NCBI GenBank assembly: GCA_903847975.1
Contig: CAINFC010000072.1
Location: 1-32,737, forward strand
Direction: 5' to 3'
DNA from: an uncultured Acidobacteriota bacterium
GTDB taxonomy: Bacteria > Acidobacteriota > UBA6911 > CAINFC01
DNA: 32,737 nucleotides
A program made the position numbers and the translations under genes. Under the pieces are notes generated by a model that worked only from the letters and a program-made list of their open reading frames with translations, was not told the DNA's origin and made no database searches. Positions 8,876 through 32,694 of this stretch are shown here, one piece after another; the first letter of the stretch is position 1, and the number at the start of each line of letters is the position of its first letter.

Positions 8876-10152
8876 TTTTCCGCTTTGATTTCCTTCATTC
8901 CATGCATGTAGGGCTGCAGCGCGTCCGGTATGCGCACCGAACCGTCTTCCTGCTGGTAATTTTCAACGATGGCCACCCAGGTGCGGCCGATCGCCAGGCC
9001 GGAGCCGTTCAGGGTGTGGGCCAGGCGCGGTTTTTCCTTGGCTTTGGGCCGGAAGCGTATGTTGGCCCGCCGGGCCTGGAAATCCTCGAAGTTGCTGCAG
9101 GAGGAAATTTCCCGGTAGCGGCTCTGACCCGGAAGCCAGACTTCGAGATCGTATGTCTTGGCGGAGGAAAAGCCCATATCGCCGGTACAGAGGGTCACCC
9201 GGCGGTAGGGAAGCTCCAGGCGCTGCAGCACCTGCTCGGCATGGCCCGTCAGGATTTCCAGCTGGTTGTAGGAATCCTCCGGGTGGGAAAAGCGCACCAG
9301 TTCCACTTTGTTGAACTGGTGCTGGCGGATGAGCCCGCGGGTGTCTTTGCCATAGGAGCCGGCTTCGCTGCGGAAGCAGGGCGTGTAGGCCACGAAGGCA
9401 ATCGGCAGCTCTTCGGCGTCGAGGATCTCCTCCCGGAAAATGTTGGTGACCGGCACCTCGGCGGTGGGAATCAGATAGTAATCGAATCCCTCCAGCTTGA
9501 ACAGATCTCCGGCGAACTTGGGCAGGTTGCCGGTGCCGTAAAGGCTGGCGGAGTTCACCATGAAGGGGGGAAGGATCTCGCGGTATCCGTGCTCGCGGGT
9601 GTGCAGGTCCAGCATGAACTGGATCAGGGCGCGCTCCAGCAGCGCCCCCGCGCCGGCGTAAACGACGAAGCGGGCCCCGGTGATTTTTCCAGCCCGGCCG
9701 GTGTCCAGGATGCCCAGCTTCTGGCCGAGCTCGACGTGCTCCCTGGGCGGGAAAGCAAAAGCTCTCGGCTGACCCCAGGAGTGGACCACGCCGTTGGCGT
9801 TTTCGTCCGATCCCACCGGCACGCTCTCATGGGGCAGATTGGGGATATAGGCCAGAAGTCCGTTCAGCTTCTCTTCGACTTCGGCCAGCTGCTGCTCCCG
9901 CGCCTTGATTTCCTCCCCCAGCTTGCGAACCGCTTCCTGCTCCGCGGAGGTGTCGGCCCCCTCTTTTTTCCGGCGGCCGATGGCCTGCGAGGCCGCATTG
10001 CGCTCCCCGCGAAGGCGGTCCACTTCGGCGACCGTTTCGCGCCGGGCTCGGTCCAGCTCCGAGAATTCGTTCAGGTCATATCCCGGTCCCCGGGTGGCCA
10101 GTCTCTCGCGGACCAGCGTTAGGTTGTTGCGAACATATCCAAGATCCAGCAT
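8857..10152 (-). CDS. serS: Seryl-tRNA synthetase
   Basis: 431 aa from ATG 10152. A TTG at 10173 is in frame, but ATG 10152 has GAGG 6 bases upstream and gives the standard N-terminus [10 protein letters not shown]. The N-terminal tRNA-binding coiled coil spans about residues 20-105. The class II core shows motif 2 ([24 protein letters not shown]) and motif 3 ([19 protein letters not shown]), with the serine pocket TAEVP. It charges tRNA-Ser (and tRNA-Sec where present) with serine in the cytoplasm. It is the first gene of a two-gene minus-strand operon with the deaminase. A palindromic repeat element lies just 45 bp upstream of its start, so its promoter is close to or within that element's end. 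Confidence 0.97.
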
Positions 10153-10196
10153 GCCGTACCTCGATTCTTCCAAAAAGAATAATCCGTAATAGAACG

Positions 10197-10473
10197 TGGC
10201 TTCGCAAAAAGTCGAGTTCCCGCGAAAGCCCTAATAGTTGGCTTCGGAACACAGCCCGGGGTTGGCGCGCTTCGCGCCTACCCCGGGTAGAGATGTACGG
10301 AGACGACAACCCTGAAAGGGTTGCGCAAAATCCAGCCATACCAGGTGTTTGCGCAGCCCCTACAGGGCTGGTTTTGAAAATAACCGCCTACCCGGGGTCG
10401 CGCCTTTGCGGCGCAACCCCGGGCTGTGTTCCGGAACCCCTTTGGGGTTCCTGCTATTTTTTGCGAAGCCATC
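10197..10473. mobile_element. Palindromic MITE-like repeat with terminal inverted repeats and flanking direct repeats
   Basis: A 277-bp non-coding element between serS and galU. Its ends are perfect 14-bp inverted repeats, TGGCTTCGCAAAAA (10197-10210) and TTTTTGCGAAGCCA (10458-10471). It is flanked by a direct repeat ATAGAACGT (10189-10197 and 10474-10482), as expected of target-site duplication. The interior is two head-to-head, partly diverged copies of a hairpin-rich unit with CAGCCCGGGGTT, TACCCCGGGT and AACCCCAAAGGGGTT motifs. The right unit (10355-10451) closely matches the reverse complement of 32523-32620. There is no transposase, so movement would be in trans. Short ORFs inside are artefacts of the palindromes. 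Confidence 0.7.
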
Positions 10474-10566
10474 ATAGAACGTTCTCCTGCATTTTAGCCC
10501 TCCCGCCGCGCCAAATCAATCAGGATAAGGATGAGCGGAAAGAGAAACGAGAGGCGGGCGGATTTC

Positions 10567-10655: not shown

Positions 10656-11549
10656 GTGACGCAGGAAAAGCAAAAGGTTCGAAAAGCGGTTTTTCCGGCC
10701 GCCGGACTGGGGACGCGGTTCCTTCCGGCCACCAAGGCGCAGCCCAAGGAGATGCTGCCGGTGGTGGACAAGCCGATCATTCAGTATGCCATGGAGGAAG
10801 CCCTGCAGTCCGGGGTGGAAACCATGATCATTGTCACCGGCCGCGGGAAAGTGGCCATCGAGGATCATTTCGATGTTTCCTTCGAACTGGAGCAGCTCCT
10901 TCGGGATCGGGGCAAGACGGAGCTGCTGCGGCAGGTCCGGTCGCTCACCGAGAGGGTGCAGGTGGCTTACGTGCGCCAGAAGGAGGCCCTGGGCCTGGGG
11001 CACGCCATCTATACCGCCCGCCCGCTCATCGAAAACGAACCCTTTGCGGTGCTTTTGAGCGACGACCTGATGCAGACCGAGCGGCCCTGCATCGGCCAGC
11101 TGATCGACGTCTATGACACCTACCAGAGCTCCGTGGTAGCCATCCAGCAGGTGCCGCACGAAGATACTTCGCGCTACGGGATCATCCGGGCGGAGCGCGT
11201 GGTCGATGACCGGTTTCCCGGCGAGCTCTACCGCATCCTGGACATGGTGGAAAAGCCGGCGGTCGACAAGGCTCCATCCGATCTGGCGATTCTGGGCCGG
11301 TACGTTCTGACCCCGCAGATCTGGGATAAAATCGGGAAGACCACGCCCGGCTCTATCGGCGAGATTCAGATCACCGATGCCATGCGGGCCCTGCTGGCCG
11401 AACAGCCGATATACGGCTACCGGTTCGAGGGGAAGCGCCACGACGCCGGGGAAAAGCTCGGCTACCTGAAGGCCACCGTCGAAATGGGCCTCAGCCACCC
11501 GGAAGTGGGAGCCGCATTCCGGGAGTACCTGAAGTCGCAGCAATTTTAA
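10656..11549 (+). CDS. galU: UTP--glucose-1-phosphate uridylyltransferase
   Basis: 297 aa, typical of bacterial GalU. The nucleotide-binding loop AAGLGTRFLPATKAQPKE (about 15-32) with catalytic Arg and Lys, the MLPVVDKPIIQYAMEEA segment and VEKP (about 203-206) identify it. It makes UDP-glucose from UTP and glucose-1-phosphate for cell-surface polysaccharide and glycolipid synthesis. The start is GTG at 10656 with AGGAG 7 bases upstream; a nearby ATG at 10651 meets a stop after two codons. It is the first gene of galU-purD-mtaB, 12 bp before purD. It could supply sugar donors for the surface glycosylation genes elsewhere in the window, but that is inference. Confidence 0.95.
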   Translation: MTQEKQKVRKAVFPAAGLGTRFLPATKAQPKEMLPVVDKPIIQYAMEEALQSGVETMIIVTGRGKVAIEDHFDVSFELEQLLRDRGKTELLRQVRSLTERVQVAYVRQKEALGLGHAIYTARPLIENEPFAVLLSDDLMQTERPCIGQLIDVYDTYQSSVVAIQQVPHEDTSRYGIIRAERVVDDRFPGELYRILDMVEKPAVDKAPSDLAILGRYVLTPQIWDKIGKTTPGSIGEIQITDAMRALLAEQPIYGYRFEGKRHDAGEKLGYLKATVEMGLSHPEVGAAFREYLKSQQF

Positions 11550-20525: not shown

Positions 20526-20692
20526 TGGCTTCGCAAGAAGAAATCCTTTAAACTGTCATCCTGTACGAAGCGCAGAGTAGTGAAGGATCTCGTTCGTAAT
20601 GGCTTCTTTTCAAAAGGATACAGGTTTCCCAAGGAGGAGATCCTTCGCTGCGCTCAGGATGACGGAGAGGGATGTGGGACTTTTTGCGAGAT
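20524..20692. repeat. Nested inverted-repeat element after the YPGG gene
   Basis: Inner arms 20555-20590 and 20638-20663 are imperfect inverted copies (GTCATCCTG...AGGATCT against AGATCCTTCG...CAGGATGAC), the common GTCATCCTGAGCGAAG type of dispersed bacterial repeat. The outer ends, GATGGCTTCGCAAGAAG (20524-20540) and GTGGGACTTTTTGCGAG (20674-20690), are degenerate versions of the terminal repeat of the 10197-10473 element. It starts at the stop codon of the preceding gene and could also act as that gene's 3' hairpin. Confidence 0.6.
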
Positions 20693-20731
20693 TATCAGTC
20701 CTGATCAAGCTGTAAAAAGTCCGTTTTGGAA

Positions 20732-20820
20732 GTCAGAATCCAGAAGATAGAATTCAGAATAGGGGTAACCTGTAGAAAAAATGTCTTTTATATTCTGGAT
20801 TCTGGCACCTGCATTCTGAT
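20732..20820. repeat. CAGAATCCAGA-type inverted repeat
   Basis: Left arm at about 20734-20760 (CAGAATCCAGAAG, then AATTCAGAA) and right arm at about 20793-20819 (TTCTGGATTCTGG, then GCATTCTG) are inverted copies with a loop of about 32 bp. This is a widespread type of simple dispersed repeat with no coding capacity. Confidence 0.55.
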
Positions 20821-20983
20821 TTCCTGTTTTTCGGATTTTTTGCACCTTCATCAGTCCTGACAATTTCGTAAAAAGTATTGAAAGCCCTTTCGGGGTTCTC
20901 CGGACTTATTGCAGCGCCATCATCCCTGATGGCTTCACAGGGGAATCTCTCTTTCTGCCTTCCCTGAAAAAAAACAGGCAACA

Positions 20984-32644: not shown

Positions 32645-32694
32645 TGGAACTTTTTGCCGGGCCGATAAAAAGGATAGCTTCGCAAAAAGTCCCA
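32645..32694. repeat. Inverted pair of the TGGGACTTTTTGC terminal motif
   Basis: TGGAACTTTTTGC (32645-32657) and GCAAAAAGTCCCA (32682-32694) are inverted copies with one mismatch. The second continues leftwards as GCTTC (32677-32681), giving the same GCTTCGCAAAAAGTC motif that bounds the elements at 10197 and 20524. Confidence 0.6.

Follow-up and report, generated by a model that had tools for sequence, protein, structure and literature searches.

The 275-bp non-coding element at 10197-10471 of the 32,737-nt window (the whole stretch of DNA that was analysed) is, judging from sequence comparisons and with a probability of roughly three in four, a non-autonomous transposon (MITE) carrying the ends of an IS1182-like DDE insertion sequence. 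A wider reading is put forward more tentatively: an IS1182-kind DDE transposase may build integron-like arrays of unrelated hairpin cassettes, including a captured resident repeat, by exact insertion at the 10-bp target copy beside a resident element, in a system that crosses phyla. The hairpin-rich dispersed repeats of bacteria are mostly without a known means of moving, and for one kind of hairpin repeat the ends, a target duplication and a candidate family of enzymes can now be named. The stacking suggests that a DDE element comes back to its own target copies, which would produce cassette-like stacks without a site-specific recombinase; a resident repeat carried by foreign ends is suggested as well.

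The element between serS and galU and its family

The element lies between serS (minus strand, start at 10152) and galU (plus strand, start at 10656), both named from a reading of their translations. Between the serS start codon and the element there are 44 bases; a first-pass annotation of this DNA gave 45 bp. The ends, TGGCTTCGCAAAAA (10197-10210) and TTTTTGCGAAGCCA (10458-10471), are inverted arms complementary at 14/14 positions and 247 nt apart, and an exact 9-bp repeat, ATAGAACGT, flanks the element at 10189-10197 and 10474-10482. Both the perfect inverted ends and the flanking duplication had been claimed in that annotation and were confirmed, as was the palindromic hairpin core, a large imperfect inverted repeat with 51-nt arms that are 76% complementary. 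The interior of the element, whose body we call A and which was aligned with 24 relatives, is an inverted dimer of hairpins, and the predicted RNA fold reaches -161.4 kcal/mol (z = -11.4 against dinucleotide shuffles). No ORF of at least 100 aa occurs within 10197-10471, and an Rfam search with E-values up to 1 returned only microRNA families, far under their cut-offs. A terminator-like hairpin with a T run inside the element (10433-10461, plus strand) is weak, two such sites being found in the region and 1.4 expected.

A DNA search of the same genome (8.13 Mb, 326 contigs), with 40 of the 310 candidates scored and a palindromic copy counting once per strand, returned at least 83 pieces matching the element. 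Many of these matches sit at contig ends; therefore, these repeats seem to be where the assembly breaks, and the family would account for many contig breaks in this draft genome. The exact end pattern GAYRNNNNNGYAAAAAGT is found 362 times in the genome, compared with 3 for the reversed pattern. In a sample of 1.09 Mb, composed of the window and 60 stretches fetched around matches and therefore enriched for elements, a weight matrix at 15 bits detected 243 ends (16 in the reversed control) and the exact pattern 100. Scaling the 362 occurrences by 243/100 suggests about 800-900 ends in the whole genome, that is, roughly 400 elements.

The elements are 55-330 bp long and their ends have the general form T-N6-GCAAAAAGT. 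Bases 8 and 10-14, within the conserved part GCAAAAAGT, carry 1.5-1.8 bits each, compared with only 0.3-0.9 for bases 2-7. The six outer variable bases are identical on both sides in 4/77 elements, as in random pairs, and left and right outer bases match on average at 2.65 of 6 positions (2.41 at random; p = 0.09). Since the two sides match no better than random, the perfect inverted ends of the serS-galU element are an exception. Outer bases that are unconserved and freely different between the sides are unusual for a DDE element, and this counts against our reading. Among the full-length copies of body A in this genome, 40/41 have at least one end motif and 31/41 have both. Such ends also enclose other bodies, at least five unrelated groups being found (44, 9, 9, 4, and 3 members) together with eight singletons; the largest group was built by single linkage and holds more than body A. 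These unrelated bodies, the arrays and the further element loci in the window go beyond the first-pass annotation. One of these loci is a shortened body A element near the contig end (32505-32664), with another end starting at 32675.

Target duplication and stacked arrays

Direct repeats at other copies, which the earlier annotation had proposed to look for, are frequent. In 37/77 of the elements scored (78 were paired in the 1.09-Mb sample, one of them without a flank), five or six of the six core bases match between the flanking 10-mers, compared with 2.45% of 5746 mismatched left/right pairs and at most 10 elements in a control of 5000 permutations. Similarly, 11/41 full-length copies of body A have a duplication of at least 8 bp, compared with 15/1640 mismatched pairs. 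By class, a clear duplication was observed in 10/27 elements with no neighbour, 18/38 with one neighbour, and 9/12 with two, bearing in mind that some of the seemingly isolated elements may have undetected degraded neighbours or sit at contig ends. Copies lacking duplications had been named beforehand as evidence against transposition. Indeed, 40/77 elements are without a clear duplication, about half having lost a recognisable one or never had it, but such copies are far fewer than expected by chance. Together with the IS1182-like transposases found inside the same ends (see below), these statistics bear out the earlier proposal of a MITE that has transposed.

The usual spacer is 10 bp, TC-N6-GA. 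The two flanks agree strongly at positions 3-8, and at the constant TC and GA their agreement is weak or unmeasurable. Relative to other copies, the serS-galU element is T...A ended. Its flanking 10-mers, the left target copy TAATAGAACG (10187-10196) and the right target copy TCATAGAACG (10472-10481), match at 9/10 positions, and the duplication at this site spans at least 8 bp, as shown by the unusual CG in both flanks. The length of the duplication, about 9-10 bp with TC-N6-GA preferred, can be stated only to within 1-2 bases. At 37 such ends, TC was present on 19 host sides and 31 element sides; therefore, TC/GA would be partly a target preference and partly, perhaps, element sequence. None of the 77 pairs of spacers has an inverted match of five or more of six. 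The idea of the host target as a hairpin was rejected, as the arms at 11 sites match at 1.7 of 8 positions compared with 2.1 for mismatched arms.

Elements also stand back to back, 92 of the 243 ends in the 1.09-Mb sample forming 46 junctions. The gap is exactly 10 bp in 42/46 (about 0.1 expected by chance), 11 bp in three, and 6 bp in one, and a gap of 15-50 bp was found in 0/46. Successive junctions of one array have an identical or near-identical spacer, and the bodies of adjacent elements are without BLAST similarity in 13/13 pairs; the same spacer between dissimilar neighbours fits repeated insertion at one target copy and not duplication. The window contains an array of this kind (20526-20919), whose spacers are, in order, CCAGTCCTGA, TCAGTCCTGA, TCAGTCCTGA, and TCATCCCTGA. 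The first is the target copy to the left of element 1 (20526-20694, 169 bp, another body), the next two stand on both sides of element 2 (20705-20850, 146 bp, body B), and the last follows element 3 (20861-20919, 59 bp). Inside element 1 there is an inverted repeat of the type GTCATCCTG..GAAGGATC. The arms of junctions are less alike than random, with a mean identity of 1.96 versus 2.50 of 6 (p = 0.003 at the 4-mismatch cut; 0.011 and 0.021 at neighbouring cuts), and perfect palindromes are, if anything, disfavoured there. Separately, the spacers at junctions in the window and the stretches L069-L128 are purine- or pyrimidine-rich in 42/58 (about 13 expected). We found no description of such arrays in the open-licence literature that was searched.

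Candidate transposases and the origin of body A

DDE_Tnp_1 is found at five places in this genome, of which only one, L130, has outward-facing ends on both sides (at 1299 and 3178). This copy is itself part of an array and its neighbouring spacers differ (TCATCCTTGA and TCAGAGAAGA). Its transposase gene, the only DUF772 gene found in the genome, is interrupted; the parts match Pfam DUF772, and the best NCBIfam match is IS1182. The other DDE_Tnp_1 genes were rejected as the mover, those at L131-L133 having no such ends and the one at L129 (IS4 family) having an end on one side only. In this genome, the element family probably now has little or no activity.

When species genomes were scanned for the exact junction, 21 stretches from 14 assemblies were returned. 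Eighteen of them are titled Deltaproteobacteria or Desulfo- kinds, and the other three belong to Syntrophomonas, Babeliales, and Verrucomicrobia, some of which may be chance. Stacking was also observed in stretches from other genomes (L136, L148, L150, and L152), and a transposase-half search of 11 of these assemblies gave a match in five. Intact IS1182-like relatives with such ends are present in Desulfobulbaceae, Desulfofustis, and Microvirga. The search for a transposase with matching ends, suggested in the first-pass annotation, thus yielded the degraded IS1182-like L130 here and intact relatives in other genomes. At L159, the ends enclose a transposase of 575 aa. The three Desulfofustis IS copies (L160, L164, and L167), whose boundaries were fixed by alignment, have the ends TGAAGTCGTAAAAAGTC (TGAAACCG... 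in one copy) and TTTTTACGAGCTCA, and the IS copy on a Microvirga plasmid (L180) has CGGGGCGGTAAAAAGT at both ends. No such ends were found at L161, L168, and L172 (Gx485_bin53), and one weak end at L169, in an inspection that left out L162, L165, L166, L170, L171, and L173.

The transposases of both intact relatives contain DUF772 and DDE_Tnp_1 / DDE_Tnp_1_6 over the Pfam cut-offs. NCBIfam IS1182 (NF033551) is their best-scoring family, with scores of 165 and 136 bits that are nevertheless under its cut-off of 270, and they are therefore named IS1182-like. The flanking 10-mers of IS copies with these ends agree at eight or more of ten positions in only 2/6 (by eye); therefore, insertion of the IS may be less clean, or may take place at inverted repeats, as with IS1272. 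The likeness between the MITEs and the IS was seen at the ends only, the interiors having been compared unsystematically and the bodies being of several unrelated kinds. As to their surroundings, the IS1182-like element of L159 (1027-3114) stands between two inverted 97-bp elements and its left and right spacers differ, and that of Microvirga (L180, 1429-3246) is set within a host inverted repeat, AGCTATGACGGA / TCCGTCATAGCT, where the plasmid record is unannotated.

The serS-galU element was matched in 5/39 relatives, and the classmates with body A are G002, G004, G025, G027, and G028 (L061-L068). By reading, the eight classmate loci contain the same kind of hairpins, most of them with the same order and mirror symmetry, and ends of at least 14 bits were found at 0/8 of these loci in the five classmates. 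Since the bodies of the classmates are without ends and nearly all full-length copies here carry one or both, the body is most likely older than the ends, and incoming IS ends apparently captured a hairpin repeat that was already resident. Allowing two mismatches, the junction occurs at 159 places in this genome and at none in the 37 classmates, from which arrays are thus absent; these counts point to an acquired, lineage-specific expansion. In the remaining 358 genomes of the phylum, it occurs once each in five, about the level of the reversed control (three genomes). One weak relative of the transposase is present in the 37 classmates.

In the mechanism that we infer, an IS1182-like transposase would bind the conserved part of the ends, cut beside the terminal T and insert any segment bounded by two such ends. 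By re-using the target copy beside a resident element, it would make different elements pile up with the same 10-bp spacing. Body A would have started as a hairpin repeat, an inverted dimer, resident in the class, and would have spread with incoming IS ends after these came to enclose it.

Alternative explanations, known systems, and serS

The regularity of the arrays could also be produced by a site-specific cassette system, in which an Xer- or integron-type tyrosine recombinase acts on a palindromic two-arm site with a central overlap. Such a system would give exact 10-bp spacers identical along an array, and the junctions are symmetric (arms TTTTTGC-N6-ATC / GAT-N6-GCAAAAA), constant in spacer length (42/46), and share the spacer at successive positions while the arms vary. 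Nevertheless, we consider it unlikely, because isolated elements in host DNA are flanked by copied host sequence and, in four genomes, DDE transposases are enclosed by ends of this kind. The growth of arrays by tandem duplication of one inserted element with its target copy is still less probable; it predicts the same spacer at every junction, as observed, but neighbouring bodies are dissimilar in all pairs compared, although a draft assembly may collapse identical neighbours.

A REPIN-like element moved by a Y1 (RAYT) transposase is already unlikely for the end-bearing form, and we regard it as very improbable for the serS-galU element, although it may apply to the origin of the body in classmates. 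In its favour, body A consists of hairpins in an inverted dimer and is present in classmates without these ends, and Y1_Tnp matches were found in 29/37 classmates. The sole Y1_Tnp match in this genome is a truncated gene (93-aa frame) with no such ends in view, the body-bearing classmate G004 is without a Y1 match, and no Y1 enzyme is known to leave target duplications. By reading, the truncated gene (L134, 1471-1716) resembles IS200/IS605 TnpA. A structured regulatory RNA or leader, kept for its fold, would agree with the strong predicted fold but is scarcely credible, given the little covariation (6/66 pairs with any double change; covariation term +0.73), the lack of any Rfam match near the gathering score, and the dispersal of copies with target duplications.

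The MITE with IS1182-like ends, our preferred reading, shares features with several known systems. REPINs with their RAYTs are inverted hairpin pairs, dispersed and non-autonomous; the elements studied here differ in their ends, in the target duplication and in that no RAYT was found, apart from the one truncated Y1_Tnp. Integron cassette arrays and pdif modules stack different units at one site with constant junctions, whereas here there are no genes inside, the host target is duplicated and a candidate DDE transposase stands in place of a recombinase. The MITEs derived from ISMac2 in Methanosarcina acetivorans (IS1182 family, 160 and 169 bp) are, like ours, short and multicopy, with inverted ends and an IS1182-family partner (PMC3852290). 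The last column of the table in that paper, as read, gives direct repeats of 4 and 0 bp for them, and the parts of the paper used here describe neither arrays nor multiple unrelated bodies, in contrast to our elements (PMC3852290). In the corresponding parts of the IS1272 paper, this IS1182-family element transposes by replacing inverted repeats, the target being removed without duplication, and a loop-duplicating route appears only as a hypothetical side branch (PMC5678879). The related transposase family and the attraction to inverted repeats are common to both systems (PMC5678879): here, the Microvirga and L159 IS lie between inverted sequences, and the array junctions are palindromic. In contrast to IS1272 as described there, a target copy of 9-10 bp is left at the MITEs (PMC5678879).

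With respect to serS, the first-pass annotation had suggested that TTTGCGA could serve as a -35 and that the element might affect serS expression. The promoter suggestion is not supported, as the promoter scan listed none at the serS-proximal end. A promoter-like site (9 of 12) was found outside the element, at 10519-10491 on the minus strand (two found in the region, 0.3 expected). If this predicted promoter is genuine, the element would form part of the serS leader.
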